From positions 8,344,415 to 8,408,414 of the forward strand of contig NZ_KI421511.1 in NCBI RefSeq assembly GCF_000473265.1: a stretch of 64,000 bases of DNA, written 5' to 3'. The translations under genes and the position numbers were made by a program. Of the stretch, positions 43,173 through 61,076 are shown piece by piece. Below the pieces are notes generated by a model. It had not been told where the DNA came from and did no database searches. It saw only the letters and a program-made list of their open reading frames with translations. Positions within the stretch are counted from its first letter, which is position 1, and the number at the start of each line of letters is the position of its first letter. This DNA comes from Amycolatopsis thermoflava N1165. GTDB lineage: Bacteria > Actinomycetota > Actinomycetes > Mycobacteriales > Pseudonocardiaceae.

Positions 43173-43451
43173 CGGTCCGCTGGGCCGCTGTTGCCGACTG
43201 CCGGACAAGGAACGGCGCAGGCGGGCGCCGGCCGAGCACCGACGCTGCCACTCACACCTGCTACGGGACAGATCGCGTTTCGACCTCCACCGAGTTGCCG
43301 CCTCACCGACTAGTGGATACCCTTGACCTGCTGCCATGTGCAAATTGCATTTCGGGAAACTTGACCTGACAGTGGTTCCAGGGGCTCATCCGCTGGAGTG
43401 GGTGCAGCGGCGCAAACCCGGCCCCGGATGCGAGGAGCGGGTACTGACGGG

Positions 43452-44429
43452 ATGGTGCTGCTACCACTTCACCGGTTTGAGTTGTTCCAGTCCAGAGATG
43501 TCGACTACACCCGTGACATGACGGCTCGCGCCTTCTGCGCGCACAAGCTCGAGCCGCTTGACCTCGCGACGGGTTTTCATGCTCGGCTCAACACCAAGCG
43601 CGTCGGCGACGGGACCAGTGTCTCGTACCTGGCCTACGGCGGTGACGTGCTCATAGAGCCGGAGGAACGCACGTATTTCGCTGTGCTCGTCCCCCTTGCG
43701 GGGGAGTGCCGGATCGAGTACGCCGGCGAGCAGATCCGCACGTATCCCGGTGAGGCCGCGGTTCTGCCACCCGACCGCTCGCTCGTCATGAACTGGTCCG
43801 CGGACTGCGCCCATCTCGTGTTCCGGATCGAGCGCGCGGCGCTGGAAGCACACCTGCGCCACCTCCTGGGAAGCGCACTGCACCAGCCACTGCGTTTCGC
43901 TCCCCGGATGCCTGTCGACTCGGGGCCGGGCCGGGGATGGGCGGCAGGTCTGCGAATGCTGGTCACCCTGTTGGACGAGTCGGACACCTTGATCGAGCAT
44001 CCGCTCGCCGCGGCCGAGTTCGAGTCCGGACTGCTGACCGGGCTACTGCTGGCCCAGCCGCACGCCTTCCAAAGCCAGCTCGCCGACCGGAACGCCCGTC
44101 CGGCGCCCTCCCGATCGGTGCGCCTCGCGGTCGACATCATGCGGAACCACCCGGAGTGGGAGCACACAACCAGCAGCCTGGCGAAGGCCACCGGCGTGGC
44201 GGTGCGAACGCTTCAGCGTGGCTTTCGCGAGGAGTTGGGCGTGACGCCGCGTGAGTACCTCAACGACGTCCGCCTGCAGCGCGTGCGCGACGAGCTTCGA
44301 GCGCGCCGACCGGAGCACGCGACGGTCGGTGCGATCGCATCCCGGTGGGGGTTCCCCCATCTCGGGCGTTTTTCGGCGCTCTATCGCAAGCGCTTCGGCG
44401 AGAGCCCGTCCTCGACCTTGCGGGGCTGA
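43452..44429 (+). CDS. AraC-family regulator with N-terminal cupin-like domain
   Basis: A 325-residue AraC protein. The N-terminal sensor (FAVLVPLAGECRIEYAGEQI, GEAAVLPPDRSLVMNW) precedes two HTH motifs (SSLAKATGVAVRTLQRGFRE, VGAIASRWGFPHLGRFSALY). The ATG at 43452 gives the most reasonable start; the frame is open 18 codons upstream. It resembles the AraC protein at 7382-8482. It lies 1 kb upstream of, and in line with, the crotonase-ketosynthase operon, which it may activate. Confidence 0.87.
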   Translation: MVLLPLHRFELFQSRDVDYTRDMTARAFCAHKLEPLDLATGFHARLNTKRVGDGTSVSYLAYGGDVLIEPEERTYFAVLVPLAGECRIEYAGEQIRTYPGEAAVLPPDRSLVMNWSADCAHLVFRIERAALEAHLRHLLGSALHQPLRFAPRMPVDSGPGRGWAAGLRMLVTLLDESDTLIEHPLAAAEFESGLLTGLLLAQPHAFQSQLADRNARPAPSRSVRLAVDIMRNHPEWEHTTSSLAKATGVAVRTLQRGFREELGVTPREYLNDVRLQRVRDELRARRPEHATVGAIASRWGFPHLGRFSALYRKRFGESPSSTLRG

Positions 44430-44674
44430 TCCCCAGGCCGAGTGGCAACGGCAGCGAGGCGCCGATTGGACAGAACCTGACGTTAAGCGTATTGCCGCGG
44501 TGCGACGCGCGGGCAAGAATAAATGTCGTGTGTGCTGAGGTGCCCGACACTGGCGTCGGCGTCCCGGTTCGGTGCTTCACTGCATGACAACGCGAGTTTT
44601 TGACTTCTCGTCGATATCGCGGACGCGGGGCATTTCGGTACCGAGGGTATCCGCAATTCGACGATGGGGGACAA

Positions 44675-45370
44675 ATGACGGCGTCCAGACTCAGGGTTCT
44701 GGTCGTTCTGCCGCAGCCTCTGCTCAGATACGGAGTGCGAAGCCTGATCGGGCAACTCAACGGTGTCGGCGAGGTCGTCGAGGCGGTGTCGGAGCAGGAG
44801 GCACTACGACACTGCAGCCAGCAGCTCCCTGGCCTGATCATCACAGACCTCATGTTGCCCAGCGGAGGAACCGGGTTGCGTGTGTGCCGGTTCGTCAAGG
44901 AACGGCGACCCGACGTGCCGGTCATCGTGCTCAGCGCCGATGCGGCGCCGGCCGCCATCGCCGCAGCGCTCAACGCGGGAGCGGACAGCTTTCTCCTCAA
45001 GTCCGCCAGCTGCGACGAGGTGCTGGAAGCGGTGGCAGCCACGTGCTCGGGGCGACGGGCTTGGGTGCTCGGCGACGCCGTGCCGAGGACTGCGGAATTC
45101 TCACGGTTGCCGGGTGCCGACCTGACCAACCGGGAGCAAGAGGTGCTCTCACTGCTGCTGAAGCGGCGGTCCAACGAGGAGATCGCCGAGGAACTGTGCC
45201 TCGCCCAGCAGACGGTCAAGAACTACGTGAGCAAGGTCCTGCAGAAGCTGGGTTTTGGCAGTCGAAGAGAACTGTTCCGGTCTGTGGAATCACGGGTCGA
45301 TCGGGTTCCGCGTCCACGTACGCGCTCGACTGACTTCCCGGAAACGCGCCCTTCGTCGCTCGCGTCCTGA
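44675..45370 (+). CDS. NarL/LuxR-type response regulator with atypical receiver
   Basis: A 231-residue protein: receiver domain (1-125), then a LuxR helix-turn-helix (LTNREQEVLSLLLKRRSNEE, then VKNYVSKVLQKLG). The phosphoacceptor Asp58 (IITDLMLP) and Lys109 (LLKSAS) are present, but the acidic pair normally after the first strand (VVDDxP) reads VVLPQP, so Mg2+ binding and phosphorylation may be lost. No sensor kinase is adjacent. The ATG at 44675 follows GGGGGA. It stands 121 bases before the crotonase gene and probably controls that operon. Confidence 0.88.
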   Translation: MTASRLRVLVVLPQPLLRYGVRSLIGQLNGVGEVVEAVSEQEALRHCSQQLPGLIITDLMLPSGGTGLRVCRFVKERRPDVPVIVLSADAAPAAIAAALNAGADSFLLKSASCDEVLEAVAATCSGRRAWVLGDAVPRTAEFSRLPGADLTNREQEVLSLLLKRRSNEEIAEELCLAQQTVKNYVSKVLQKLGFGSRRELFRSVESRVDRVPRPRTRSTDFPETRPSSLAS

Positions 45371-45491: not shown

Positions 45492-46286
45492 ATGCCGGCC
45501 CAAGTTCAGCTGGATTGCCAGGACGGGGTGCTGACCGTCATGCTGAACCGGCCGGAAAGCGGTAACGGACTCGATTTCGAAACAGGCAAGGCGTTGCTCG
45601 CCGCGGTCGCGGACGGTGCTGCCGACACGAGCGTTCGTGTGATCGTGCTGCTGGGCAGCGGCGGCATTTTCTGCTCGGGGGACGATCTGGACTCGCTGCG
45701 GAAGTACGCCGACGGTGACGTCGCCGCCGCACCCGCGTCCGCCGACACCGCCGACGCGTTCTACGTGCGGATCTGCGAAGAAATCGTGCTCGCACCGAAA
45801 CCGGTGCTCGCCGCGGTGAACGGCGTGGCGATCGGGCCGGGCACGGAGATCGCGTGCGCCGCTGACCTGCGCATCGGAGGTCCGGGGAGCCGCATCGGGT
45901 GCGGTTTGATCCGGGTGGGCCACGTCGGCATCGGCGCGATGTTGCGGCGCGTGGTGGGCCCGGCCCGGGCGACCGAGATCTTCCTCTCCGGACGCCTCGT
46001 CGGCGCGGACGAAGCACACCGGATCGGTCTCCTGGACCGGTTGGTTCGCGAGGACGAGCAGGTCGTGGACGAGGCTCTGCGGCTCGCCCGCGACCTCGCC
46101 TGCGGTCCGACGAAGGCCATCGCCCTGTACAAGGAACTGCGCGAGCGCTCGATCGAGCAGCCGGTGCTCTCCGCTCTGCGGATGCAGGACCGGTTCCACC
46201 GGCGCAGCCACGCGGAAGTCGCAGACAGCGACGAAGGCTTGCGCGCGCTACTGCACGGCAGGAAACCGCACTTCACCGGTCATTGA
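45492..46286 (+). CDS. crotonase/enoyl-CoA hydratase-family enzyme
   Basis: A 264-residue crotonase-fold protein. The oxyanion-hole segments IFCSGDDLDSL and VNGVAIGPGTEIACAADL are in place, with Glu119 at the first catalytic Glu position. The second Glu of true hydratases, in a PExxxG motif, is replaced (LIRVGHVGIG), so simple hydration is doubtful; isomerase, decarboxylase or ring-opening retro-Claisen chemistry is as likely. It is the first gene of the ten-kilobase ketosynthase/CoA-transferase operon. The ATG at 45492 follows GAGAAGG. Confidence 0.87.
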   Translation: MPAQVQLDCQDGVLTVMLNRPESGNGLDFETGKALLAAVADGAADTSVRVIVLLGSGGIFCSGDDLDSLRKYADGDVAAAPASADTADAFYVRICEEIVLAPKPVLAAVNGVAIGPGTEIACAADLRIGGPGSRIGCGLIRVGHVGIGAMLRRVVGPARATEIFLSGRLVGADEAHRIGLLDRLVREDEQVVDEALRLARDLACGPTKAIALYKELRERSIEQPVLSALRMQDRFHRRSHAEVADSDEGLRALLHGRKPHFTGH

Positions 46287-46348
46287 ACGGTCCCCACATC
46301 GCGCGGCTTTCCGGTGAACCCGGTACGCCGTGATCGGAGAAATGTGAA

Positions 46349-47644
46349 ATGCAGCAGAAGAATGACGACCAGCAAGTTGTCATCACTGGGCTGGGATTCG
46401 TGCTTCCCGGCGCGGAGAGCCGGGACGACGTGTGGCGGACGCTGCGCGACGGCGTTTCCCAGATCGACGTCCTCCCGGCGGAGCTCACCCGTGACGTGCC
46501 CGCCGGAAGCGTGAGCCGTGTTGGAGCCAGGGTCCGGAATTTCGACCACAGCAAGCACGTCCCGGACCTGCCGGACGCCTTCACGAAGCGGTACAGCCGG
46601 GAGATCCTGATGGTCCTCTCGGCGGTCGAGCAGGCCAGGCGCGACGCGGACCTGACCGTCGGGGACTCCGTCACCGAGCCACAGCGGGTGGGCGTGATCG
46701 GATCGAGCTCACGCGGACCGGTCGAATGGTGGTCGCAGACCGCGCGCGGTGGCGCTCTTGATCCGGAGAACCCGCCGATCGACGTCGATCAGGCGATCTT
46801 CGCCTCGCTCCCAGGGAGCCCGGCGACGCTCAGCGCGATCCGGCTCGGCGCGCAGGGCACTGTCACGACCCTGAGCAACGCGTGCGTCGCCGGCCACCAG
46901 TCGATCGCCTTCGCCGTCCAGGCGCTGCGGGCCGGGCAGGCCGACGTAATGATCCTCGTCGGCCACGAGACGCCGTTCGTACCGGAGATGCTCCGGCTGT
47001 ACTCCTCGCCCAGCGCTGGGGTGCTGTCCCGCGCTCAGGGGGACCCCCGGCAGACGATCAAACCCTACGACCGCCGCCGGGACGGGTTCGCGTTCGGCGA
47101 GGGGGCGGTGGCCATGGTTCTGGAGACACGCGCGCACGCCGAGCGCCGGCAGCGGCAACCCTATGCCGCCATCGGGTCGGCCGTCAGCCTCAACGAAGCG
47201 GGCCACGCAACGCGGATGGACCTGAGCGGCCGGTTCACCGCTGACCTCATCGGCAAGGCGGCGACCGCCGCCGGTCATCCCGCCGCCGACCTCGACTACA
47301 TCTGCGGTCACGGCACCGCGACGCGGTACAACGACCTGGCGGAGAGCCGGGCCCTGCGGCTGGTGTACGGCGAAGACCGCGCCGGATGGCCGCCATTGGG
47401 GTCGATCAAACCGGTGTTCGGTCACCTGCTCGGGGCATCGGGGCTGCTCAACTGCGCGGCCGTCGCCCTGATGGTGCGTAACCAATGTCTGGTCCCGACG
47501 ATCAACTGCGTCGAGGTCGACCCCGAGTGCGACCACGACCACGTGCAGGAGGGCGCGCGACCCGCCGTCGTGAACCGAGCGTTGTCGTTGTCGTTCGCCA
47601 TCGGCAGCCAGAGCTCAGCCGTGGCGTTGGAGAAGGTGGCATGA
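46349..47644 (+). CDS. KAS II (FabF)-like beta-ketoacyl synthase
   Basis: A 431-residue thiolase-fold condensing enzyme. The full Cys-His-His triad is visible: Cys179 (LSNACVAGH), His321 (CGHGTATRYND) and His359 (KPVFGHLLGASG). This is the elongating type normally fed by acyl-ACP, yet no carrier protein, malonyl transferase or phosphopantetheinyl gene is in the window. It is coupled by ATGA to the CoA-transferase gene, suggesting CoA-bound substrates. It may pair with the second KAS-like protein at 52986-54263. Confidence 0.9.
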   Translation: MQQKNDDQQVVITGLGFVLPGAESRDDVWRTLRDGVSQIDVLPAELTRDVPAGSVSRVGARVRNFDHSKHVPDLPDAFTKRYSREILMVLSAVEQARRDADLTVGDSVTEPQRVGVIGSSSRGPVEWWSQTARGGALDPENPPIDVDQAIFASLPGSPATLSAIRLGAQGTVTTLSNACVAGHQSIAFAVQALRAGQADVMILVGHETPFVPEMLRLYSSPSAGVLSRAQGDPRQTIKPYDRRRDGFAFGEGAVAMVLETRAHAERRQRQPYAAIGSAVSLNEAGHATRMDLSGRFTADLIGKAATAAGHPAADLDYICGHGTATRYNDLAESRALRLVYGEDRAGWPPLGSIKPVFGHLLGASGLLNCAAVALMVRNQCLVPTINCVEVDPECDHDHVQEGARPAVVNRALSLSFAIGSQSSAVALEKVA

Positions 47645-49293
47645 CGTCGCAGATCATTGACGATCCGGACGCGTTGTGCCGGCGCCACCTGGTGCCTGGC
47701 ACGCACATCCATGTGGCGTCCACCATGTCGCGGCCGAACGCCCTGCTGCTGGCCCTGGCGCGGGCTTTCCGCGGCCGGGCGGTCTTCGACGTCAGCAGCA
47801 ACGCCTTCCACGCCAACATGCACGCGCTGGCGATCGCCGGTGTGGTACGGCACGCGATCACATGTTTCGCCGGCGACACCTACCCGTCACCGCGCCCGAA
47901 CCCGCTGTACGCGGATCTGCCGGAGGGAAAGCCGTTCACCGTGGAGGAGTGGAGCCTGCTCGCACTCCTCCAGCGGTTGATCGCGGGCGCGTGCGGGAAC
48001 CCGGTCACGGTCACGACGTCGCTCGCCGGTTCCGATCTGGAGGGCCGGGGGACTCGATTTCCTGCCGAGTTCGCGGATGCTCAGGACTGCCTCACCGTTC
48101 CGGCGCTGCGTCCGGACGTCACGTTCCTGCACGCCCCATGCGCGGACCGGCGGGGGAACCTCTACCTCAACGGCCCGCGCGGCGAGGGCTGGTGGGGCGC
48201 GATGGCCGCGCGCCGAGGCGTGCTGGCGACCGTGGAGCGGGTGGTGGACCGGCCGCCGAGCGGTGGGGTGTCCATCCCCGCCGACCGGGTGCTCGGCATC
48301 GCGCGCTGCGAGTTCGGTGCGCACCCGCAGGGGCTTCCCCCGTGGCCCGAGTGCGGTTTCGCCGGTTACCGGGACGACTACTCCTTCCTGGCCGAGCTCG
48401 CCGACACTTTCGCGAGGCCGGGTGGACCGGACGCCTGGTTCGACCGGTGGGTGCTCACCCCGGCGGGGCACGTGGACTACCTCGCCGGCCTCGGCTCCGA
48501 CCGGCTGGCCGCGCTCCGCCGGCTGGATCCGCTTCGTCGGCCGGTCGCGGAGGGCGGGCCGTCCTGGCGGGAACGGCACGTCGTGGTGGCGGCCCGGGCG
48601 ATCGCGGATCGGGTACGGGCCGCGGGCTACCACACACTCTTGGCGGGCATCGGTACCGCGCACATCGCATCGTGGCTGGCGGCGGCCCAGCTGGCCCGGG
48701 ACGGCCACCCCCTGCAAGTGCACGCCGAGCTGGGGCTGATCGACATGAGCCCGGCGGCTGGTGACGCGTTCCTGTTCGCGCAGGCCCACGTGTCCCGATC
48801 CCGTGCGCACGGCGACAGCCTCGACGTGCTGGGTGCGCTCACCGCTGGTGGTTACGGCCGGGCGTTGGCGGTGCTCTCGGCCGGTGAGATCGATCCGGCG
48901 GGCCGCATCAACAGCAGCCGGACGGCGGACGGCCGGTACCTGGTGGGGTCGGGCGGGGCGAACGACTTCGCGACCCACCTGGAAACGCTCGTGGTCGCAC
49001 CGGCCTCCCCACGCAAACTGGTGCCGCGGGTGCATTTCGTGACCTGTCCCGGTAAGAACGTGCTGACCGTGGCGACCCAGTACGGGCGCCTGGTGCGGGA
49101 GTCCGCCGCGGCGCCGTTCCACCTCGGCACGTGGATGGCGCCGGACGACGACACCGGTGCGGATCCGGTCAGCACACTGCGCGCCCGCACGTCCTGGCCC
49201 GTTCCCGACAGTTCTCCCGAGTGGGAAAAGCCGATCACGGACGAGGAACTGTCCACACTCCGCACTCTCGACCCGGAGGGCTTCTACCGATGA
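47641..49293 (+). CDS. fused alpha-beta class I CoA-transferase-fold enzyme
   Basis: A 550-residue protein in which both halves of a class I (glutaconate/acetate type) CoA-transferase are joined. The first half runs to about residue 270 (HVASTMSRPNALLLALARAF, TSLAGSDLEGRG); the second holds HAELGLIDMSP, where Glu363 matches the position of the CoA-carrying Glu, and GSGGANDFA. It may transfer CoA, or, like IpdAB of steroid catabolism, which has the same fold, hydrolyse a C-C bond of a cyclic beta-diketone thioester. It overlaps its neighbours on both sides (ATGA). Confidence 0.8.
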   Translation: MTSQIIDDPDALCRRHLVPGTHIHVASTMSRPNALLLALARAFRGRAVFDVSSNAFHANMHALAIAGVVRHAITCFAGDTYPSPRPNPLYADLPEGKPFTVEEWSLLALLQRLIAGACGNPVTVTTSLAGSDLEGRGTRFPAEFADAQDCLTVPALRPDVTFLHAPCADRRGNLYLNGPRGEGWWGAMAARRGVLATVERVVDRPPSGGVSIPADRVLGIARCEFGAHPQGLPPWPECGFAGYRDDYSFLAELADTFARPGGPDAWFDRWVLTPAGHVDYLAGLGSDRLAALRRLDPLRRPVAEGGPSWRERHVVVAARAIADRVRAAGYHTLLAGIGTAHIASWLAAAQLARDGHPLQVHAELGLIDMSPAAGDAFLFAQAHVSRSRAHGDSLDVLGALTAGGYGRALAVLSAGEIDPAGRINSSRTADGRYLVGSGGANDFATHLETLVVAPASPRKLVPRVHFVTCPGKNVLTVATQYGRLVRESAAAPFHLGTWMAPDDDTGADPVSTLRARTSWPVPDSSPEWEKPITDEELSTLRTLDPEGFYR

Positions 49294-50303
49294 CCGCACA
49301 CGAACCGCCCGGCGGCCGCCCGGTCGGACTGGCCGGGGTGGGACACGACTTCCCCGGCGCCCCGATCACCAACGACTACTTCGAGTCGGAGCACCCCGCC
49401 CTCGGCATCGACGACGCGTGGATCCGCAAGCACACTGGAGTCGGCGCGCGGCACTGGCCTCCGCCGGGCGAGTACCACGCCGACATGGCCGAACGCGCGG
49501 CGGCGATGGCTCTCAAGGACGCGGGTGTCGACGCCGCGGACGTGGACGTCGTCATCGGCACGACCGCGACTGCGCGGCCCCGAACCAACCCGACGACCGG
49601 TGGAAACCGGTACATGGATCTGGCTTTGCCGCTGCAGAAACGCATCGGGGCCGAGCGCGCGTTCGCGTTCGACATCACCGGTGTTGCCTGTGCCGGTTTC
49701 CTGCATGGCAGCGTTGTGGCGCAGGGTCTGCTGGCGAACCCGGCAGTCGAGACGGTGCTGGTCGTCGCCGCTGAGAACCCGCGGCCCATCCTCAACTTCG
49801 GTTTCCGCAACGCTGCTTTGTTCGGGGGCGGGGCCGCCGCCGGCGTCTGGCGGGCGTCGGACGCTCCGGGCGGGCTGGAGGGTGCGGTCCTCCGGTCGGA
49901 CGCGGAGTTCTACGACGCCTTCGACATCGACGACCAGGACAAGATGATCATGAAGGGGAAGGTTGTCAGCGATGTCGCGTCGCGGTTCCTGTCGGAGGCC
50001 GCGCGGGACGTGCTCGCCCGATCCTCGCTCACGCTCGACGACATCGACTGGATCATCCCGCACCAGGGCAACATCCACATCATCGAGGAGGTGGGCGAGA
50101 TCCTGGAACTCCCGCGGGAACGGGTGCTCGTCAACATCCACCGCCGCGGCAACACCTCCAGCGTGAGCGTACCCAGCTGTCTGTCCGAACACGTGCACGA
50201 CGGCACCATCCGAAGAGGACAGCGGGTGCTGGCGATGAGCGTGGGCCGCGGGTTCAGCTGGGGAGCCATGGTCTTCCGCTACGGGGAGCTCTCGCGTGCC
50301 TGA
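49290..50303 (+). CDS. KAS III (FabH)-like enzyme 1
   Basis: A 337-residue FabH-type thiolase-fold enzyme with an intact Cys-His-Asn triad: Cys134 (ITGVACAGFLHG), His258 (IIPHQGNIH) and Asn288 (RRGNTSSVS). FabH-type enzymes use acyl-CoA starters for Claisen condensation or act as acyltransferases. The start overlaps the CoA-transferase stop. A sister enzyme follows directly. Confidence 0.88.
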   Translation: MTAHEPPGGRPVGLAGVGHDFPGAPITNDYFESEHPALGIDDAWIRKHTGVGARHWPPPGEYHADMAERAAAMALKDAGVDAADVDVVIGTTATARPRTNPTTGGNRYMDLALPLQKRIGAERAFAFDITGVACAGFLHGSVVAQGLLANPAVETVLVVAAENPRPILNFGFRNAALFGGGAAAGVWRASDAPGGLEGAVLRSDAEFYDAFDIDDQDKMIMKGKVVSDVASRFLSEAARDVLARSSLTLDDIDWIIPHQGNIHIIEEVGEILELPRERVLVNIHRRGNTSSVSVPSCLSEHVHDGTIRRGQRVLAMSVGRGFSWGAMVFRYGELSRA

Positions 50304-50337
50304 TCGGGAAAGCCAAGAAGGAAAGGTACTGTCAGCG

Positions 50338-51321
50338 ATGTCGAAGGAACAGGTCGGTGTGGACGGTCCCCGGTGGGCAAGCGCCGGCCTGGTGCTCCGT
50401 GGCTTCGGCCTGTACTACCCGGAAGAACAGATCTTCAACTCGGACGTGGCGGCGGTACCGGGGAACTCGATCGACACCTCGGTGCTGGGAACGGTGTCCG
50501 TGCGATCCCGTCATCGCAGCAGCGAGACCGAGACGGTCCAGTTCATGGCAGCCGAGGCGGGCAAGGCCGCGGTGAAGGACGCGGGCCTGGAACCGACCGA
50601 ACTGGATCTGCTGGTCCTGTCGAACTGGACCACACCGCCGTTCACCCCCGAATACGGGCCAGAAGTGGCAGCACTGCTCGGTACCCCGCGGACACTGGCG
50701 TTCGACATCTCGGGCGCCTGCGTCGGTTTCCTGCACGGTGTACAGACCGCGGCCGCCTACCTGCACTGCGTTCCGGAGGCGCGGCACGCGCTTGTCGTGT
50801 GCAGCGAGCAGTTCAGCAGGCGGGTCCGCCCGGGCAGCAAGGGTGAACTTGTCGCCTCGGATGCCGCGGGAGCGGTCGTCCTGAGCAAGTCCACTGAGAA
50901 GAGTGGCTTGATCGACGTGGTGTTGCACAGTGACGGTTCGCGGGCGGATGTGATCAGGGTGGCTGCGCCCCGCGGCTGGATCCGCAGCGAGTCCACCCTG
51001 CCGGACCACGCGGTCACAAGCATCGTCGACTCCTGCGCGGAGGTCTTCCGGCGCACCGGCGTGACCATGGACGAGGTCGACTGGGTGGTTCCGCACCCCG
51101 GAACGGACGTCGTGCACCGGCGGGTCCGGACCGCGCTGGAGGTCCCTGAGGAGAAGTTCATCGTGAACTTCGAGACGAGAGGGAACACCTCCAGCGCGTC
51201 CATTCCGATCGTGCTGGCCGAACAGGTCGCGGCGGGGCGGTTCCGGCCCGGCGATCTGGTGCTCAGCCCCGCGATCGGCGCAGGCTGGTACTCCGGCGCC
51301 ATGCTCTACCGGATTCACTGA
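50338..51321 (+). CDS. KAS III (FabH)-like enzyme 2
   Basis: A 327-residue FabH-type enzyme with Cys128 (ISGACVGFLHG), His253 (VVPHPGTD) and Asn283 (TRGNTSSAS). I used the ATG at 50338 behind AAGGAAAGG; a GTG at 50296 with GGGGAG would add 14 residues and overlap the preceding gene. Two adjacent but divergent FabH-like proteins could form a heterodimer or act on successive steps. The stop overlaps the next start by one base. Confidence 0.87.
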   Translation: MSKEQVGVDGPRWASAGLVLRGFGLYYPEEQIFNSDVAAVPGNSIDTSVLGTVSVRSRHRSSETETVQFMAAEAGKAAVKDAGLEPTELDLLVLSNWTTPPFTPEYGPEVAALLGTPRTLAFDISGACVGFLHGVQTAAAYLHCVPEARHALVVCSEQFSRRVRPGSKGELVASDAAGAVVLSKSTEKSGLIDVVLHSDGSRADVIRVAAPRGWIRSESTLPDHAVTSIVDSCAEVFRRTGVTMDEVDWVVPHPGTDVVHRRVRTALEVPEEKFIVNFETRGNTSSASIPIVLAEQVAAGRFRPGDLVLSPAIGAGWYSGAMLYRIH

Positions 51322-52136
51322 TGACGAGCGGTCCGGTGGCGCCCAGTACCAGCGGCAGCGTGCTGGTGGTCGGCGGCAGTAGCGGAATCGGTCTCGCGAC
51401 CGCACTCGTGCTGGCCGAGGCGGGACGTCGTGTGCTCGTGGCAGCCCGGGGCGGTGAGCGCCTGGCCGAGGTGGCGGAGGTCGCTGAGCGCAAGAAGCTC
51501 CCCCTGGAGACCAGGGTGGTCGACGTGCGGAGCGAGCGGAGCGTGGACGCGCTCTTCTCCACTCTCGATGAGGCAGGCGAGCCGGTCACGGCGTGCGTGA
51601 ACACAGCGGGGCGGAACTTGTCCCGCAGGTTGCTCGGGCCGCCCGGCGACGACGGCGGGCAGTGGCTGATCCACTCGGAGCGGGACTGGCAGGACACTCT
51701 GGACCTCAACCTGACCGGTACGTTCCGGGTGGCGCGGGCGGCGGCGCTGCTGTTCGCGAGCCGGCGGCGCAGCGGGGTGATCGTCACGGTAGCCAGCTCG
51801 ACCTGGCGCGGGTCATGGGGACAGCCCGCGTACGCGGCGGCGAAGGCCGGAATCGTGTCCCTGACGCGGAGCCTGGCGCTCGAACTGGCAGACCACGGAA
51901 TCCGGGTCGTGTGCGTGGCGCCCGGCGTGATCGACGGCGCCGCGCTGCGGGACAAGTGCGCGCGGAAGCCCGCGCACGCCGCTCACATGGCGCGGTTGCG
52001 CGAACACATCCCGCTGCAGCGGTTCGCGAGGGAGTCCGAGGTCGCGCGGACCATCGTGCACGCGATCGACAACGAGTACCTGACCGGCAACGTCCTGGAG
52101 GTGGATGGCGGTGGCTTTCCCGGCCGCATCACGTGA
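51321..52136 (+). CDS. short-chain dehydrogenase/reductase
   Basis: A 271-residue SDR. The cofactor motif VVGGSSGIG lies at residues 16-24 and the active-site YAAAK near 173; Ser lies in TVASSTW. It likely reduces a beta-keto group or oxidises a hydroxyl of an intermediate from the surrounding condensing enzymes. The gene's last 32 bases overlap the next SDR gene. Confidence 0.9.
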   Translation: MTSGPVAPSTSGSVLVVGGSSGIGLATALVLAEAGRRVLVAARGGERLAEVAEVAERKKLPLETRVVDVRSERSVDALFSTLDEAGEPVTACVNTAGRNLSRRLLGPPGDDGGQWLIHSERDWQDTLDLNLTGTFRVARAAALLFASRRRSGVIVTVASSTWRGSWGQPAYAAAKAGIVSLTRSLALELADHGIRVVCVAPGVIDGAALRDKCARKPAHAAHMARLREHIPLQRFARESEVARTIVHAIDNEYLTGNVLEVDGGGFPGRIT

Positions 52137-52956
52137 AGAACCCGGCGCAGGCGAGCGCTTCGAAGGGCAGGTCGCGCTCGTCACCGGTGGTGGCAGCGGA
52201 ATCGGGCTGGCGGTCGCCGAGGTCCTGGCGGCAGGCGGCGCGTCTGTCGGGCTGCTCGGCCGGAACCTGGAGCGCCTGCGCACGGCGGAGAAGAAGATCG
52301 TCGCAGCCGGTGGTGAGGCGATGGCCTGCCCCGGTGACGTGCGGGACCTGGATTCGGTGCAGTCCGCGGTCGCCGAGGTGGAGCAGCGGTACGGGCCGAT
52401 CACCTTCGCGGTCAACGCGGCGGGCACCGGGGTGGGGCAGAAGTACCTGTGCGACCAGGACGAGGAGTCCTGGCTGCGCACGATCGACACCAACCTCAAC
52501 GGGTCCTTCCGGTTCTGCCGGGCCGTGGTGCCGGGGATGATGCACCGCCGGCGCGGATCGATCGTCCTCGTCTCGAGCGCGGCCGGTAAGCGCGGAGTTC
52601 CCGCGAACACCGCGTACTCGGCCTCGAAGTGGGGCCTCAACGGCCTGGTCCGGTCGCTGGCGCTGGAGGTGGGACCCGCACACGTGCGGGTCAACGCCGT
52701 CTGCCCGGGCTTCACCGACACCGAGATGGTGCGCGACGAAAGCCTCTTCGGCGGGGACTTCATGGACAGCGTGCGCCGGCACGCCGGTCCGCCGGACCTG
52801 ACCTGGGAACGCTACTGGCGGAGCACGGTCAAGCAAACCGCGCTCCGGCGCCTCATCGACGCGGAGGAGGTGGCCGAGATGACGGCCTTCCTGCTCAGCG
52901 ATCACGCCCGATCGATCACCGGCCAGTCGTACTCCATCGACGGCGGCCTGCCCTGA
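52105..52956 (+). CDS. short-chain dehydrogenase/reductase
   Basis: A 283-residue SDR with VTGGGSGIG (about 27-35), NAAGTG and the active-site YSASK. An insertion of about 20 residues (DFMDSVRRHAGPPDLTWERY) covers the substrate site and sets it apart from the preceding SDR. The ATG at 52105 overlaps the previous gene by 32 bases; a GTG at 52111 is an alternative. It is part of the ketosynthase operon. Confidence 0.9.
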   Translation: MAVAFPAASREEPGAGERFEGQVALVTGGGSGIGLAVAEVLAAGGASVGLLGRNLERLRTAEKKIVAAGGEAMACPGDVRDLDSVQSAVAEVEQRYGPITFAVNAAGTGVGQKYLCDQDEESWLRTIDTNLNGSFRFCRAVVPGMMHRRRGSIVLVSSAAGKRGVPANTAYSASKWGLNGLVRSLALEVGPAHVRVNAVCPGFTDTEMVRDESLFGGDFMDSVRRHAGPPDLTWERYWRSTVKQTALRRLIDAEEVAEMTAFLLSDHARSITGQSYSIDGGLP

Positions 52957-52985
52957 CCCGAGCGCACTCACGAACTGGAGCCGTG

Positions 52986-54263
52986 ATGTTCCCGACCCAA
53001 GGCGCCTGGAAACCCGTCACGGTACGGGGAGCCGGTTTCGCGTTGCCCGGTGCGGACCGCCCGTGCCACGACTACAAGGAGTTCGCCGATTCGGTGATGG
53101 CCGGATCCTGCGCCATCACGCCGTTCGAGCTGGCGGGGACACCCATCCGGGTCGCCGGTCAGGTGCCGGGCACCGGGGCGGAGACCCTGGACCTACCCGA
53201 TCGCCTGGTCTCGAGACTGCCGCGGGCGAGCAGGCTGGCGCACACCGCGGTGGCCAACGCACTCGACCACGCCGAGCTGACGGCCGCCGAGATCAGCCGC
53301 CGGGACGCGGTGCTGATCGTGACGTCGTTCCAGTTCGCCCTGCAGGAAACGGCTGTGCTGCTCGACCGGTTCGCCGAGGCCGGTCCGGCGGGCGTCGCCT
53401 TCGATTACTGGTCCAAGGTGGCACCGGGCAGCATCGCGTCCGGGCTGTGCACCAACCTCGGGCTGGACATCCCCACCCTGACGCTGACGGGCGGGTGCAG
53501 CACCTCGTTGCGGGGGTTCGAGCTCGCCGCGAGCATGGTCGCGCGGGGCGAGGTCGAGTACGCGGTCGTCGTGGGTGCGGACACGATCCTGGAGCCGCTC
53601 TACCTGTCCGCGACGGGTTACGCCGGCCGATCCGGCCACCGCGCTTCATCCATTTCGGACGATCCGGCGGACGTCCGGCCGCACGACGCGGTGCAGACGG
53701 GCAACGCGCCGGCGGAAGGTGCGGCCGCCACCGTGCTGACGTCCACCCGGAACCCCGGCGGCGGGGTGGACGCCGCCGTCGAGTTCATCGGGTTCTCGTC
53801 CCGCAACGGGGGCGGCAATCCCATGGGCCTGGGCGATCCGAAGAGGTGCGCGGCCGACATCCGGCGCCTGCTGGCCGTCGGCGGTGTGAGCCTCGGTGAT
53901 CTGGCCTTCTTCTGCGACTTCGCCGAGGGCAACCGCCAGCTCGAGGATTTCCTGTGCGAGACCCTGGTCACCCTGCGCGCCGCTCTTGCCGACGACGCGC
54001 CGCTCACGCTGACCTCGCAGGAAGCGTGTTACGGCCACCTGCCCGGCGCGGCCGGGCTGCTCAAGGTACTCGCGAGTCTGGTGATGCTGACGGAGAACCG
54101 GGTCGCCCCCACCGCGAACCTGGTGAACCCCTATCCCCGCTTGCCCGCGCGCGCTCTGGCTGGTAGTTCCGAGCGGATTGCCGACAATGGCCGGCGGACG
54201 GCGATGACGGTGGGCCTTTCCGGTGGCGGCGACACGACGTCGCTGCTGCTCCGGCTCGCCTGA
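52986..54263 (+). CDS. KAS II-like protein lacking one catalytic His
   Basis: A 425-residue beta-ketoacyl-synthase homologue. Cys171 (LTGGCSTSLRG) and the last His, His351 (CYGHLPGAAGLL), are conserved. Where normal enzymes have an HGTGT box, this one reads CDFAEGNRQLED (310-321), with no His. Normal decarboxylative condensation needs both His residues, so it may condense without decarboxylation, transfer acyl groups, cleave C-C bonds, or act as a chain-length-factor-like partner of the intact KAS. The ATG at 52986 follows GGAG. Confidence 0.85.
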   Translation: MFPTQGAWKPVTVRGAGFALPGADRPCHDYKEFADSVMAGSCAITPFELAGTPIRVAGQVPGTGAETLDLPDRLVSRLPRASRLAHTAVANALDHAELTAAEISRRDAVLIVTSFQFALQETAVLLDRFAEAGPAGVAFDYWSKVAPGSIASGLCTNLGLDIPTLTLTGGCSTSLRGFELAASMVARGEVEYAVVVGADTILEPLYLSATGYAGRSGHRASSISDDPADVRPHDAVQTGNAPAEGAAATVLTSTRNPGGGVDAAVEFIGFSSRNGGGNPMGLGDPKRCAADIRRLLAVGGVSLGDLAFFCDFAEGNRQLEDFLCETLVTLRAALADDAPLTLTSQEACYGHLPGAAGLLKVLASLVMLTENRVAPTANLVNPYPRLPARALAGSSERIADNGRRTAMTVGLSGGGDTTSLLLRLA

Positions 54264-54302
54264 GGTGCACTCCCGCCGGCCGGACCGAGGAGGAGGACAG
54301 CC

Positions 54303-55415
54303 GTGGCGGGACCGTTGTGCGGGTTGCGCGTTCTGGAGCTGGGAGGGATCGGCCCGGGGCCCCACGCGGCCATGCTCCTGGCCGATCTGGGGGCGGAGGT
54401 GGTCCGTGTCGAGCGGCCCAGGGGTGGTCTGCGTGTGGTGCCCGAGGGCGCCGATGACTGGCTGCTGCGCGGTCGGCGCTCGATCTCGGCCGACCTGAAG
54501 CACCCGGAGGGACGCGACCTCGTGCTCGCGCTCGCCGAGAAGGCCGATGTGCTGATCGAAGGCTTCCGGCCGGGGGTCGCCGAGCGGCTGGGCGTCGGCC
54601 CGAAGGAGTGCCTGGACCGCAATCCTGGCCTGGTCTACGGCCGCATGACCGGCTGGGGGCAGGACGGGCCACGGGCCGACCGGGCCGGGCACGACATCAA
54701 CTACCTCGCCGTGACGGGCGTGTTGAACGCCATCGGCACGGCCGGCGCGCGTCCGACGCCGCCTCTGAACCTGGTCGGGGACTTCGGTGGTGGATCCCTG
54801 TACCTCGTCCTGGGCGTCCTGTCGGCGTTGTGGGAACGCGGGCGCTCGGGCAGCGGGCAGGTGGTCGACGCGGCGATCGTCGACGGCGTCACGTCGCTGG
54901 CGCAGGGGGTGTGGGCACTGCGCGGCGTCGGCCAGTGGCGGGACGAGCCGGCGTCGAACCTGGTCGACAGCGGGGCCCCCTTCTACGACACCTACCGGTG
55001 CCGCGACGGCCGGTACGTCGCGGTGGGTGCGATCGAGCCGCAGTTCTACGCCCAGCTCGTCGACGGGCTCGGACTGGGCGACGCCGATCTGCCGGACCAG
55101 CTCGACCGCTCCGGGTGGCCGCGTCTGCGGCAAGCCTTCCGGCAGGCCTTCGAGACGCGGAGCCGTGACGAGTGGGCCGAGCGGTTCGCCGGCGTCGACG
55201 CGTGTGTCACACCGGTGCTCGACTTCGCGGAGGCGGTCGACGAACCGCAGCTCGCCGGGCGCGGCACGATCGTCGAGCTGGGCGGGGTCCGCCAGGCCGC
55301 GCCGGCGCCGAGGTTCTCCCGCAGCGCACCGGACCTCCCAGAGGCACCGCGAAAGCCAGCGGCGGACACCGAGGCCGTGTTGCGGGCTTGGGGCGTGCGT
55401 CACCCGGCTGGGTGA
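54303..55415 (+). CDS. alpha-methylacyl-CoA racemase-type CaiB family enzyme
   Basis: A 370-residue family III protein of the racemase branch. [11 protein letters not shown] holds His130 and LVGDFGGGS holds Asp160, the two bases of alpha-methylacyl-CoA racemase. [20 protein letters not shown] is also typical. It should interconvert 2R- and 2S-methyl (or alkyl) acyl-CoAs, which implies that the operon's substrate carries an alpha branch and is bound to CoA. The GTG at 54303 follows GAGGAGGAC. It ends the ketosynthase operon. Confidence 0.9.
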
Positions 55416-55661: not shown

Positions 55662-57212
55662 ATGAAGCTGTCACTCTCGCGCCGGTGGGCCGTGCTCGCC
55701 GGTGTGCTGACCGCGGCGCTGGTCGCGACCGCCTTCGCGGCGGTCGCTCCGGAGCGCGCCACTGCCGCGAGCGGAACCAGGTGCGCGGACGCCGGCGACC
55801 GGTACGAGACCGCGCGCCCCGAGCAGGTCGGTCTCGATCCCGTCACCCTTGGACACGCGCTGAACCTCCTCTCGGTCAACGGGTCCGAGACGGTGCAGGT
55901 CTACCGGCACAACTGCCTTGTCGGGACGGGGATCTTCGACCCGCTGCTCGGTCACGTACCGGGCAACAACTGGAGCCAGACCAAGACGATCACCGCCCTG
56001 CTCGCCGGCCGGGCCGCCACCCTCGGCCTCCTCTCCGTCGACGATCCGATCGGGAAGTACCTTCCGCCGGGCCTTGGGGACGAATCCCACCGCGCCGTCA
56101 CCGTCCGCCAGTTGCTGACCCAGACCAGCGGCATCAGGGCGAACTGGACGCGTGAGCTGAACCTCGCGATGCCCGACCGCGTCCGCGAGTTCCTGTCCCT
56201 GCCGTTCGACCACCAGCCCGGAACCTTCTACCGGTACTCGCAGACCGGGCCGTCCGTGGTGGCCTACGTGGTGCAGCGCGCGGTCGGTGAGGACCTCCAG
56301 GACTTCGCGCAGCGCGAGCTCTTCGGCCCGGTCGGCATCCCCCGCGCCCACTGGTTCTGGCTGCGGGACCGCGCAGGCAACACCGACGGCTGGTCCAACC
56401 TGTTCCTGCCCGGACACGACTTCGGGCGGATCGGTCAGCTGCTGGCCAACAACGGCACCTTCCACGGAAAGCGGCTGATCTCCGAGAGCTACCTCCGCGA
56501 ACTGCGCACGCCGAGCCCGACCAACCCCGGCTACGGCTACCTCACCTGGCTCAACGCCGGCCCGTACTGGATCACCCCGTCCGCGTTCGCGTCCACACGC
56601 AACCCGGCGCCGATGATCGCCAGTGCTCCCGCCGACATGTACTTCTCCTACGGGTTCTTCGGCCAGCACGTCTTCGTGATCCCCGGGCTGGACATGGTGG
56701 TGACCCGCTCGAGCGGGACGCTCAACTGGCCACCGAGCCGGCTCGACGCGGGCGATCCGCTCACTGCCGTCGCGCCGGGCCAGACCACCCGCGTCGAGTA
56801 CGAGTTCTTCCGCCTCCTGACGCAGTCCGTCGTCACTCCCCGGCAGCCGGCTCCGCCGCCCTACGTCGCGCCGAAGCCGGGTGCGGTCGACCCGAGCCTG
56901 TTCGTCAGCGTGCCCGACAACCTCGCGGTGGCGCAGCTGGGCCCGAACGCTCCGAAGGGCTGCACGATCTTCGGGTGCGGCGGAAAGCTGGCCGCGGCCG
57001 GCACCATCCGGTCCCTGATGGACGTTCCGCGCACCGGTTTCGCGGCGCTGACCGCTCTTCCGGCCGGCACCGCGCAACTGGCGCGGCAGGTGCCCGATCT
57101 GTTGCCGCGCCTGCTGGACGGCTGGCAACAGACGGCACGCATCGCGGGTGAGCAGCTTCCGGCGGCGCTTCCGGCGCTGCTGGCGTCCCTCCAGCAGTCG
57201 GTTGGGGGATGA
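55662..57212 (+). CDS. exported serine hydrolase of the beta-lactamase/esterase fold
   Basis: A 516-residue protein with a signal peptide (residues 1-36, hydrophobic core WAVLAGVLTAALVATAF, Ala-rich cleavage region). The SxxK nucleophile motif is Ser105-Gln-Thr-Lys108 (NNWSQTKTI). TFYRYSQTGPS likely supplies the active-site Tyr. Pro-rich and helical segments at the C-terminus extend beyond the usual domain. Such proteins are esterases, amidases or peptidases outside the membrane. The TetR operator 160 bases upstream makes it a likely member of that regulon. Confidence 0.87.
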   Translation: MKLSLSRRWAVLAGVLTAALVATAFAAVAPERATAASGTRCADAGDRYETARPEQVGLDPVTLGHALNLLSVNGSETVQVYRHNCLVGTGIFDPLLGHVPGNNWSQTKTITALLAGRAATLGLLSVDDPIGKYLPPGLGDESHRAVTVRQLLTQTSGIRANWTRELNLAMPDRVREFLSLPFDHQPGTFYRYSQTGPSVVAYVVQRAVGEDLQDFAQRELFGPVGIPRAHWFWLRDRAGNTDGWSNLFLPGHDFGRIGQLLANNGTFHGKRLISESYLRELRTPSPTNPGYGYLTWLNAGPYWITPSAFASTRNPAPMIASAPADMYFSYGFFGQHVFVIPGLDMVVTRSSGTLNWPPSRLDAGDPLTAVAPGQTTRVEYEFFRLLTQSVVTPRQPAPPPYVAPKPGAVDPSLFVSVPDNLAVAQLGPNAPKGCTIFGCGGKLAAAGTIRSLMDVPRTGFAALTALPAGTAQLARQVPDLLPRLLDGWQQTARIAGEQLPAALPALLASLQQSVGG

Positions 57213-57255
57213 ACACGGGGCGCACGACGGAGTGCGTCCGAGGAAAGGAAGTCCG

Positions 57256-58473
57256 ATGATCGGTGGTAGCTGTGCGGAAGGGTTCTCGCGCGTTCGCGAG
57301 GAGTTCGAGCGGAACTTCGCCGACCGCGGGGAGGTGGGCGCCTCGGTCTGCGTGATGATCGACGGCGAACCGGTGGTGGACCTGTGGGGTGGCGTCGCCG
57401 ATCGGGAGACCGGCCGCCCGTGGGAGCAGGACACCGCGAGCGTGATCTTCTCCTGCACCAAGGGGGCGACCGCGCTGTGCGCACACGTGCTCGCGTCCCG
57501 CGGGCAGCTGGACCTGGCCGCGCCGGTCGCCCGCTACTGGCCCGAATTCGGCCAGTCGGGCAAGGAGGACATCACGGTCGGAATGCTCTTGACCCACCAA
57601 AGTGGACTTCCAGTGATCAGCACGCCGTTGCCTGACTGCGCCTTCTTCGACTGGGACCGGATGATCGCCGCTCTCGAGGTGGAGAAGCCCGCGTGGGAGC
57701 CCGGAAGCAGGCACGGTTACCACGCCCTGACCTTCGGCTGGCTGGTCGGCGAACTGGTCCGGCGCGTGTCCGGCAGGTCGCTCGGCGAGTTCTTCCAGCA
57801 GGAGGTCGCCGAGCCGCTGGGCCTCGACTTCTGGATCGGGTGCCCGGAGGAGGTCGAACCCCGGCTCGCGCCGATGATCTTCCCGGAGCCGCGGGAGGGC
57901 GACGAGCCGTCGCTCTTCATGACCATGGCAGCGACCAAGCCGGAATCCATTCCCGGTCAGATCTTCGCCAACTCCGGCGGGTACATGCTGCCCGGGCCGA
58001 CCGGGTTCGACTCCCGCGAGGCGCACGCTGCCGAGATCGGGGCCGCGGGCGGGATCAGCAACGCCCGTGGCCTCGCCGGCATGTACGCGCCGCTGGCGTG
58101 CGGCGGCGGCCTCGCGGGGGTGGAACTGGTGGACCGGCGCGCGCTGACGCGGATGACGACGACCATGTCGGCGGGGCACGACGAGACGTTGCTGATCGGC
58201 AGCCGGTTCTCGGCAGGCTTCTTCCGGTCGATCGACAACCGGCACCGTCCCTACGGCTTGCGCGACAGTGTCATCCTGTCCCAGGACGCCTTCGGCCACC
58301 CCGGTTTCGGCGGCAGCATCGGCTTCGCCTCGCCTGCCGACCGCATGTCCTTCGGCTACACGATGAACAACATGGGGCCTGGCACCCTGCTCAACGAGAG
58401 GGGGCAGAGCCTGGTCGACGCCGTGTACCGCTCGCTCGGCTACACCGATGACAGCGCGGAGGTGTGGTGCTGA
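57256..58473 (+). CDS. serine hydrolase, EstB-like beta-lactamase family
   Basis: A 405-residue cytoplasmic hydrolase of the class C beta-lactamase fold. SxxK is Ser66-Cys-Thr-Lys69 (IFSCTKGAT), Tyr lies in HGYHALTFGWLVGEL, and HPGFGGSIGF resembles the third (HxG) motif. EstB-type members are esterases with little lactamase activity. It follows the exported relative by 43 bases. The ATG at 57256 is preceded by AAAGGAAG. Confidence 0.9.
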   Translation: MIGGSCAEGFSRVREEFERNFADRGEVGASVCVMIDGEPVVDLWGGVADRETGRPWEQDTASVIFSCTKGATALCAHVLASRGQLDLAAPVARYWPEFGQSGKEDITVGMLLTHQSGLPVISTPLPDCAFFDWDRMIAALEVEKPAWEPGSRHGYHALTFGWLVGELVRRVSGRSLGEFFQQEVAEPLGLDFWIGCPEEVEPRLAPMIFPEPREGDEPSLFMTMAATKPESIPGQIFANSGGYMLPGPTGFDSREAHAAEIGAAGGISNARGLAGMYAPLACGGGLAGVELVDRRALTRMTTTMSAGHDETLLIGSRFSAGFFRSIDNRHRPYGLRDSVILSQDAFGHPGFGGSIGFASPADRMSFGYTMNNMGPGTLLNERGQSLVDAVYRSLGYTDDSAEVWC

Positions 58474-58537: not shown

Positions 58538-58557
58538 ATGTATGAACGATCATACAT
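58538..58557. promoter_or_regulatory. TetR operator at the tetR promoter
   Basis: ATGTATGA-ACGA-TCATACAT has perfect eight-base arms. It ends 71 bases before the chosen tetR start and shares the TATGAAC core with the palindromes at 55487 and 60299. Autoregulation is likely. Confidence 0.75.
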
Positions 58558-58628
58558 CCCGGTGGCGGGGCCCAACTGGCCCTGCCACCGGGCGTACGGC
58601 CCAGGTGCACGGAAGTCGGTGGGAAGCG

Positions 58629-59246
58629 ATGGGGACGCCGGTCAGGTCGCGGAGCAGGAACGGGCAGCACCCGCGGGTCCGGCTACAGGAGGCGGGCACG
58701 CGCCTGTTCTACAACAAGGGGTTTCACGCGACGTCCGTGCGGGACATCACGGAGGCCTGCGGCCTCACCCCCGGCGCGCTCTACAACCACTTCGGCTCCA
58801 AGGAAGAGCTGCTGTACTCGATCATCCTGGACGGGCACGCCGCGCTCGACCGCATGCTCGACGCGGTCCGCGCCGACGCGCCCGCGCCCGAGCGCCTGCA
58901 CGGCTTGATCGAGGCCTTCGTGCTGCACCACACGCGCTACCGCAAGGAAGCCGTGGTGGGCGACGAGTGGCGCGCGCTCGACGAGGAACACCGTGACGAA
59001 GTGCGCCGGCTCCGGCTCGGTATCCGGGCCAGGGTCTCCGATGTCATCCGCGAAGGTGCCGCGGCAGGCGCCTTCGAACTGCCCAAGGTGCCCAACGGCG
59101 ACCCGGTGCGGATGGCCGCCACTGCCGCGCTCGACATGTCCTTCCGGGTGGCCGGCTGGTTCAGTCCGGACGGCCCGGTGTCGGACACCGCGTTCGCGGC
59201 CTTCTACGCCGATCTCGTCCTCCGTTCGATCAGCAAGGTTCGCTGA
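58629..59246 (+). CDS. TetR-family transcriptional regulator
   Basis: A 205-residue TetR protein. The helix-turn-helix region is GTRLFYNKGFHATSVRDITE, then ACGLTPGALYNHFGSKEELL, as in KstR2/FadR-like regulators of lipid and terpenoid catabolism. I chose the ATG at 58629 (GGGAAG upstream). An ATG at 58542 lies within the operator and would add 29 unlike residues. The C-terminal domain is ligand-binding, probably for an acyl-CoA. It likely represses the hydrolase genes upstream, itself, and the SDR genes downstream. Confidence 0.9.
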   Translation: MGTPVRSRSRNGQHPRVRLQEAGTRLFYNKGFHATSVRDITEACGLTPGALYNHFGSKEELLYSIILDGHAALDRMLDAVRADAPAPERLHGLIEAFVLHHTRYRKEAVVGDEWRALDEEHRDEVRRLRLGIRARVSDVIREGAAAGAFELPKVPNGDPVRMAATAALDMSFRVAGWFSPDGPVSDTAFAAFYADLVLRSISKVR

Positions 59247-60332: not shown

Positions 60333-61076
60333 ATGAACCTCGCAGGACGTGCCGCGCTCGTGACCGGGGCCGGACGTGGGATCGGCGCGGCGATCGCCGA
60401 ACGCCTCGCCGCGGGCGGCGCCCGGGTCGCGGTGAACGATCTGGACGCCGAGGCCGCCAAGGCGACTGTCGAGCGCATTCAGGCCGGGGGTGGTGACGGG
60501 GTGGCGCTGGCCGGCGACATCGCCGACACCTCCTTCGCCCGCGAGCTGGTCGCCACTGCCGCCGACCAGCTCGGCGGCCTGGCGGTCCTGGTCAACAACG
60601 CGGGCACCATCCACCGCCTGCCGCTGCGGGAGCAGACCGAACAGCACTGGGACCGGGTGATGGACGTCAACCTCAAGGCGCCGTTCGTGCTCAGCCAGGC
60701 CGCGGTCGATCACCTCGCCGCGTCCGGGCACGGCGCGATCGTCAACATCTGCTCGGTCGCGGTGATCGGGTTCTTCCGCCAGATCGCCTACGACGCCTCC
60801 AAGGGGGGCCTGCTCACGATGACTCGGTCGCTGGCCGTCGAACTGGGCCGGGAAGGGATCCGGGCCAACGCGATCGCGCCGGGGTTCATCGACACCGACA
60901 CCGGGCACGCGGCCGATCTCGGCCGGATCGGGGAGAAGACAGTGGCGACCCTGCCGTTGAGCCGGACCGGGCAGCCGGACGAGGTCGCGGGCGCCGCGGT
61001 TTGGCTGGCGTCGGACGAGGCGCGGTACGTCACGGGCCAGGTGCTGTTCGTCGACGGCGGCTGGGTGCGGAACTAG
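60333..61076 (+). CDS. short-chain dehydrogenase/reductase (FabG-like)
   Basis: A 247-residue classical SDR with VTGAGRGIG (about 10-18), NNAG and the active-site YDASK, plus NAIAPGFIDTD. It probably oxidises a secondary alcohol or 3-hydroxyacyl-CoA. The ATG at 60333 (GGAG upstream) is preferred over a GTG at 60321. The TetR palindrome lies just before it. Confidence 0.92.
   Translation: MNLAGRAALVTGAGRGIGAAIAERLAAGGARVAVNDLDAEAAKATVERIQAGGGDGVALAGDIADTSFARELVATAADQLGGLAVLVNNAGTIHRLPLREQTEQHWDRVMDVNLKAPFVLSQAAVDHLAASGHGAIVNICSVAVIGFFRQIAYDASKGGLLTMTRSLAVELGREGIRANAIAPGFIDTDTGHAADLGRIGEKTVATLPLSRTGQPDEVAGAAVWLASDEARYVTGQVLFVDGGWVRN

Follow-up and report, generated by a model that had tools for sequence, protein, structure and literature searches.

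A probable nonactin-type, carrier-free polyketide operon in Amycolatopsis thermoflava N1165

We analysed a window of 64,000 nucleotides from Amycolatopsis thermoflava N1165 (C1:8344415-8408414 of an 8.69 Mb genome, labelled G000; other genomes carry similar labels), and in particular an operon at 45492-55415 that encodes four ketosynthases (KSs) next to a crotonase, a fused CoA-transferase, two short-chain dehydrogenases/reductases (SDRs) and a racemase. An initial annotation of this DNA had described the set as CoA-based and free of acyl carrier protein (ACP), and had recognised no described pathway in it.

The operon and its enzymes

All nine open reading frames (ORFs) lie on the + strand and are co-directional and mostly coupled: neighbouring genes overlap by 1-32 bases at four of the eight junctions and are 26-62 bases apart at the remaining four. 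The nine-gene unit of the initial annotation is real, and its family calls are borne out by Pfam, which agrees with the assignment of each gene. None of the nine proteins reached a curated cut-off among the NCBIfam matches listed. A PADLOC run on two proteins gave no match, and among the matches listed in a literature search there was no paper on this cluster in Amycolatopsis. The genes are as follows:

45492..46286, +: crotonase-fold enzyme P0001, proposed NonS-like cyclase/hydratase (Pfam ECH_1, alignment)
46349..47644, +: KS1, KAS II-type ketosynthase with full Cys-His-Lys-His (Pfam, alignment, tree)
47641..49293, +: fused class I CoA-transferase P0003, alpha+beta (Pfam CoA_trans, alignment)
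49290..50303, +: KSIIIa, FabH-type, Cys-His-Asn intact (Pfam, alignment, tree)
50338..51321, +: KSIIIb, FabH-type, Cys-His-Asn intact (Pfam, alignment, tree)
51321..52136, +: SDR1, ketoreductase-like (Pfam, presence table)
52105..52956, +: SDR2, ketoreductase-like (Pfam, presence table)
about 52983..54263, +: KS2, divergent KAS II, proposed to form ester (C-O) bonds, NonJ/NonK-like (Pfam, alignment, tree)
54303..55415, +: alpha-methylacyl-CoA racemase P0009, MCR-type (460 bits to 1x74 MCR)

The alignment shows that the four KSs, all present as initially annotated, are not equivalent in their catalytic residues. KS1, KSIIIa and KSIIIb are intact, whereas in KS2 the nucleophilic Cys and the second His are retained, Phe replaces the first His (His1) and Glu replaces the Lys. 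His1 and Lys are absent from KS2 in all 14 readable orthologues, and also in 10 of 10 copies of KSx, a sister type that likewise keeps its Cys; KS1 keeps both residues in 17 of 17. In KAS II enzymes the first His and the Lys serve decarboxylation. Retention of Cys together with loss of His1 and Lys is what is expected for ester bond formation, and KS2 seems better suited to transferring an acyl group to a hydroxyl than to decarboxylating. A reading of KS2 as the chain length factor (CLF) of an aromatic type II polyketide synthase (PKS) was rejected, as the Cys is kept. Phylogenetic trees, built from 45 KAS II-type and 36 KAS III-type sequences, place each KS type of the cluster in a family of its own, apart from the FabF/FabH of G000, and the types show matching clades across the trees. 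The AlphaFold models of KS2 and of the CoA-transferase (mean pLDDT 67.9 and 56.5) are too weak for a fold search.

For P0003 the nearest solved structures are glutaconate CoA-transferase, AibA, SCOT and IpdA, all distant relatives (profile E 1e-12 to 4e-5). The Glu363 residue in its AELG motif is invariant in seven of seven aligned sequences, which suggests true CoA transfer. P0009 scores 460 bits (E 4.7e-137) against the solved Mycobacterium tuberculosis racemase MCR, with which it aligns through the HDINY and NLVGDFGGG stretches, compared to at most 125 bits against CoA-transferases. On this difference we rejected the plain CaiB CoA-transferase proposed from NCBIfam; the racemase call was right, and it supports the alpha-branched CoA ester substrates that had been suggested with it. 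An FC[AS]GDD signature is common to the orthologues of P0001, in which a three-residue deletion removes the second Glu region that ordinary hydratases have.

Conservation of the gene set and the search for carrier proteins

Adjacent KS1 and CoA-transferase genes were found at 17 loci, 15 of which also carry KSIIIa, KSIIIb, SDR1, SDR2 and KS2. This indicates that the gene grouping is more than chance. Since the CoA-transferase or KS2 served to find the loci, only the presence of the other genes counts as independent evidence. The two partial loci are G072 (KS1, CoA-transferase and a weak SDR) and the Streptomyces plasmid NBC_00388 (KS1, CoA-transferase and one KSIII of this type). On the latter (L051, NZ_CP107949.1) the KS1-CoA-transferase pair is accompanied by AfsA-like, acyl-CoA carboxylase and butyrolactone regulator genes, and possibly, by annotation, by a CreE/CreD nitrous-acid pair.

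Within the family, 22 of 297 genomes have the CoA-transferase at E<=1e-20, of which six have the KS operon (G000, G064, G175, G014, G113 and G174) and G072 has the KS1-CoA-transferase pair alone; in the other 15 positive genomes the window KSs were not seen in the regions covered (20 kb stretches for eight, short loci for seven). Further CoA-transferase matches at 16 loci (L016-L031, 30-42% identity) were rejected as a different, catabolic-looking set, with no window-KS homologue in loci of 3.7-4.6 kb. A scan of 394 genomes of the class finds the CoA-transferase at E<=1e-60 only in G000 and G479; with the KS2 profile, too, these genomes stand apart from five further matches, which lie between 4.6e-33 and 6.1e-31. 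In genus g71, taken to be Streptomyces, the KS2 profile matches seven of 246 genomes at E 1.2e-135 or lower, and an eighth at 4.5e-33. Three loci were found on named genome contigs, of Allosalinactinospora lopnorensis, Amycolatopsis thermalba and Saccharopolyspora indica. A split of KS2 between two frames is noted for the draft of G688 and for the draft assembly of A. lopnorensis (L047/L093).

KSx, and hence a total of at least five KSs, is present in 10 of the 15 clusters. It was not found in the branch of the window, that is, in the whole G000 genome (PF00109 search) or in the fetched stretches of G064, G175, G113 and G014. The tree of the concatenated core genes has three groups: six g71 genomes; G174, G479 and G772; and G688, G113, G014, G000, G064 and G175. 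Its branches are long and the deep joins uncertain. Because G688 keeps KSx, the gene was probably lost once inside the window's branch. A tblastn search of plasmids with KSx gave stand-alone KS loci beside type I PKS genes and no nonactin cluster. These KSs (L062:13980-15314, L063:14010-15290 and L065:12064-13329, on Streptomyces linear plasmids) are about 42% identical to KSx and each adjoin a single type I PKS; they keep the Cys, have lost His1 and carry QEGCFGH, a second home of the non-decarboxylating KS type.

The lack of an ACP and acyltransferase, as initially annotated, holds for 600 kb around the operon (PF00550, PF00698). The nearest ACP match lies at 618 kb in G000, at more than 1.7 Mb in G064 and G175, at about 350 kb in G014, at 130 kb in G174 and at 573 kb in G479. 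No match falls on the contigs that carry the cluster in G113 and G688, or anywhere on the NBC_00388 plasmid (W01), and for the seven g71 genomes and G072 the nearest among the matches listed are at about 57 kb (G772) and about 20 kb (G072). When two ACPs of G000 were compared by tblastn to 31 cluster loci and the window, only the control locus was found (3e-48 and 2e-5), an ordinary KS-alpha/CLF pair of G000 with an adjacent ACP; all others gave E>=1.8. Acyltransferases are equally absent near the clusters in 16 genomes or records (the closest on a cluster contig is at about 123 kb, in G808), and in G000 the nearest is more than 600 kb from the operon. In the test named beforehand, the set is thus conserved as an ACP-free unit, with no ACP beside any of the 17 loci, and the ACP and acyltransferase that might have been expected in the operons of relatives were found near none of the clusters.

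An ACP encoded elsewhere, for instance that of fatty acid synthesis, could still be used in trans and make the pathway carrier-dependent, which would be compatible with a nonactin-type homology. PP-binding matches do occur elsewhere in all 16 whole genomes searched, and the related pamamycin pathway has an ACP according to the available part of PMC10644645. We nevertheless consider this improbable: no locus has an ACP beside it, whereas the ordinary type II PKS of G000 has one next to its KS/CLF genes, and nonactin is described as ACP-less in the available part of PMC10817512.

Relation to macrotetrolide clusters

Non-iterative type II PKSs, with several KAS II and KAS III enzymes that are each used once and with C-O bond formation in nonactin, are described in the available text of PMC9582728. 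The nonactin system has five KSs and four ketoreductases (PMC10817512, in part), and ACP-less systems of this kind with several KAS II/KAS III are reported for it in the accessible parts of PMC9582728, PMC10817512 and PMC4979870. The din cluster comprises ten ORFs in 12.0 kb, with NonS/NonL homologues Dyn4/Dyn5 and NonJ/NonK homologues Dyn9/Dyn10 (PMC10817512 section 2.6, as available). We took the din ORF numbers to follow gene order.

Six of the genomes with a related cluster (G730, G849, G808, G881, G693 and G796, here clade A) have five KSs and several ketoreductases and lack an ACP; each also has a CocE/NonD hydrolase that outscores the rest of its family in that genome (536-672 bits on TIGR00976, with every paralogue at least 154 bits lower). 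Beside the seven g71 clusters this hydrolase scores 484-672 bits, against at most 381 for other paralogues there; we take the family (CocE_NonD) to be named after NonD of S. griseus. The gene order in G808 and G881 is KSx-KS2-double SDR-SDR-NonD-type hydrolase-CoA ligase, followed in G881 by the enoyl-CoA hydratase (ECH; outside the stretch read in G808), and the spacing fits the din numbering (NonS-NonL, then three genes, then the KS pair). In G881 the distance between KSx and the amidohydrolase, a chosen end point, is 11.96 kb. We infer that clade A is of the macrotetrolide type, that KS2/KSx correspond to the NonJ/NonK pair and that P0001 is NonS-like. By homology, the window contains one of this proposed C-O forming pair, KS2 (39-41% identical to that of clade A), and P0001 shares 47% identity with the ECH that neighbours the CoA ligase in G881, G849 and G730.

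Taken together, the operon appears to encode a non-iterative type II PKS that lacks an ACP and is a divergent member of the macrotetrolide (nonactin) type, a reading to which we assign a probability of roughly 0.82. ACP-less type II PKSs have been described for nonactin, and the operon shares homology with clusters similar to the published macrotetrolide set; the initial statement that no described pathway matches is therefore unsupported. Most likely this is a new branch of a known nonactin-type assembly and not an unknown pathway.

A number of observations weigh against this assignment. The window has four KSs instead of five, as KSx is missing, and no NonD neighbour (the best TIGR00976 match in G000 has 239 bits and is about 320 kb away), and its core is 39-55% identical to clade A. 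Clade A is identified with non itself from the genes it contains, from part of their layout and from the NonD family, the characterised proteins being known by description. G881 has nine called genes from KSx to the chosen amidohydrolase end point, against ten din ORFs, and the spacing fit is limited to G808 and G881, since the single SDR between double SDR and hydrolase is uncalled in G730 and G849. Finally, the downstream Liv-type transporter, thiolase and amidohydrolase look catabolic, and a KS-free Georgenia operon has relatives of the ECH (47%), SDR (54%) and amidohydrolase (42%) together with a CocE hydrolase. The latter, on the Georgenia sp. TF02-10 plasmid (L064, 6269-12774), consists of an amidohydrolase, SDRs, two ECHs and the CocE/NonD hydrolase. 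The Georgenia operon is possibly a breakdown pathway for such esters. Genes of this kind could serve to salvage or degrade the product or its acids, and that part of the region may have a catabolic role.

The initial annotation had left the choice between Claisen assembly and the same enzymes running in reverse. In a catabolic, retro-Claisen pathway a branched acid would be imported and its C-C bonds cleaved by the thiolase-fold enzymes, with the Liv-type transporter, CoA ligase, thiolase and amidohydrolase as the supply route. Genes for a CoA ligase, a thiolase and a Liv-type ABC transporter lie just downstream, in G064 and G772 too, the Georgenia plasmid shows that the ECH, amidohydrolase, SDR and CocE genes can occur without KSs, and the CoA-transferase fold includes IpdA-type proteins, which have a ring-opening role. 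We regard the catabolic explanation as very unlikely as a whole: KS1 retains its decarboxylation residues in 17 of 17, its companion KS type looks ester-forming, G174 and G479 have the KS core with no catabolic genes of this kind among those called in the regions covered, and clade A resembles a described antibiotic cluster. CoA-based assembly is thus supported and C-C bond breaking disfavoured. Even less credible is a pamamycin-type pathway, in which a long and a short hydroxy acid are closed to a macrodiolide: the pam order A,B,D,E,O,K,J,M,N,L,H, as far as the available source gives it, would leave room for KS1, CoA-transferase, KSIIIa, KSIIIb, ketoreductase (KR), KS, KS, KR, KR, ligase, hydrolase, by position only and with presumed gene functions, but the window cluster has no ACP beside it, no further KS gene near it (PF00109 search) and no aminotransferase or methyltransferase noticed by eye among the called window genes.

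Under the nonactin-type assignment, KSIIIa, KSIIIb and KS1, with the residues described above, would each perform one decarboxylative Claisen condensation on CoA thioesters, in an order and on substrates that we can only propose, and three such steps could yield a CoA-bound chain of some eight to ten carbons. The SDRs would reduce ketones, and the crotonase would dehydrate/rehydrate or, like NonS, close an ether ring by oxa-Michael addition. The fused CoA-transferase, with its conserved Glu, may load CoA onto a short acyl or beta-keto acid or remove it again; together with the ligase it could manage CoA loading. The racemase, by its family, would epimerise a 2-methyl-acyl-CoA, and KS2 would join hydroxyacyl-CoA units by ester bonds, as NonJ/NonK do. 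Free acids might be reactivated or cleared by the nearby CoA ligase and hydrolases. The predicted product is an ester of 2-methyl-branched hydroxy acids.

More tentatively, the Amycolatopsis-type branch may have replaced the scheme with two ester-forming KSs: with KSx lost, one ester-forming KS kept and an alpha-methylacyl-CoA racemase present, one line plus epimerisation could supply both stereo-series of the hydroxy acid, to be closed to a new diolide or linear polyester wholly on CoA. We think this possible, though rather doubtful. A member of the racemase family lies beside six of the 15 clusters (G000, G064, G175, G014, G479 and G772).

If the nonactin-type assignment is true, carrier-free polyketide assembly lines reach Amycolatopsis, Saccharopolyspora and Allosalinactinospora, and the data suggest that the fused CoA-transferase is part of their conserved core. 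The KS2 pattern (Cys kept, His1 and Lys lost) is a candidate sequence signature for ester-forming KSs, and such genomes could be mined for new ionophore-like esters.

Flanking genes and comparison with known systems

The conserved unit exceeds the nine genes: the LuxR and AraC genes upstream, the genes at 58542-63566 downstream and a CoA ligase recur near the relatives. The flanking genes are:

43398..44429, +: AraC-type regulator, beside 5 of 15 clusters (Pfam AraC_binding_2/HTH_18)
44600..45370, +: orphan NarL/LuxR-type response regulator (Pfam Response_reg + GerE)
55662..57212, +: beta-lactamase-family serine hydrolase, possible esterase (Pfam Beta-lactamase), kept in G064 and G175
57253..58473, +: second beta-lactamase-family serine hydrolase (Pfam); relatives (37-39%) also adjoin the G688 cluster
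58542..59246, +: TetR regulator, beside 6 of 15 clusters (Pfam)
59286..60251, +: Amidohydrolase-2 protein, beside 8 of 15 clusters (Pfam)
60336..61076, +: SDR3 (Pfam)
61103..61966, +: SDR4 (Pfam)
62079..63566, +: double-SDR protein with two adh_short_C2 stretches (Pfam)

A LuxR-type regulator was detected in 13 of the 15 clusters and falls below the table threshold in G688 (partial match) and G772. The hydrolase at 55662..57212 has, by eye, a signal-like start. The double SDR accompanies 13 of 15 clusters (in G175 the region is outside the stretch fetched). The acyl-CoA ligase gene is located at 8414050-8415624, 5.6 kb beyond the window end; a related CoA ligase adjoins 12 of the 15 clusters, and this ligase is 55-59% identical to that of clade A (six genomes), NonL being known by description. 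The ketoreductase candidates in the window are SDR1, SDR2, SDR3, SDR4 and the double SDR, set beside four ketoreductases in non.

Elsewhere in the window, three genes at 30041-33097 resemble, by eye, pqqB, pqqC and pqqE of PQQ cofactor synthesis. At 2398-6521 there are two similar, opposed sets of a MaoC-like gene (3411-3965; 5985-6521) and a CitE/HpcH-like gene (2398-3414; 3901-4761), with a CaiB-like gene in between; by eye this resembles a duplicated catabolic module.

Of the known systems, AibAB, glutaconate CoA-transferase and IpdAB have the class I CoA-transferase fold in common with P0003, in which the subunits are fused. Aromatic type II PKSs share the KAS II fold of KS1 and KS2, but the window lacks their KS-alpha/CLF/ACP trio, whereas the KS-alpha/CLF pair that G000 itself has at 883 kb is adjacent to an ACP. 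Pamamycin (pam of Streptomyces alboniger) is a related KS-rich pathway with CoA extender units and a NonS homologue, as described in the available parts of PMC4979870 and PMC10644645; the pam cluster contains an ACP, genes for amine tailoring and a second KS operon, and neither an ACP nor another KS operon was found at the window cluster. The likeness to nonactin and dinactin (non of S. griseus, din of S. globisporus), which runs via clade A, taken to be macrotetrolide clusters, includes the ACP-less organisation, discrete KAS II and KAS III enzymes, ketoreductases and, putatively, a NonS-type ECH, a NonL-type CoA ligase and a divergent, ester-type KS. Unlike these two systems, the window adds an alpha-methylacyl-CoA racemase and putative beta-lactamase-family esterases.

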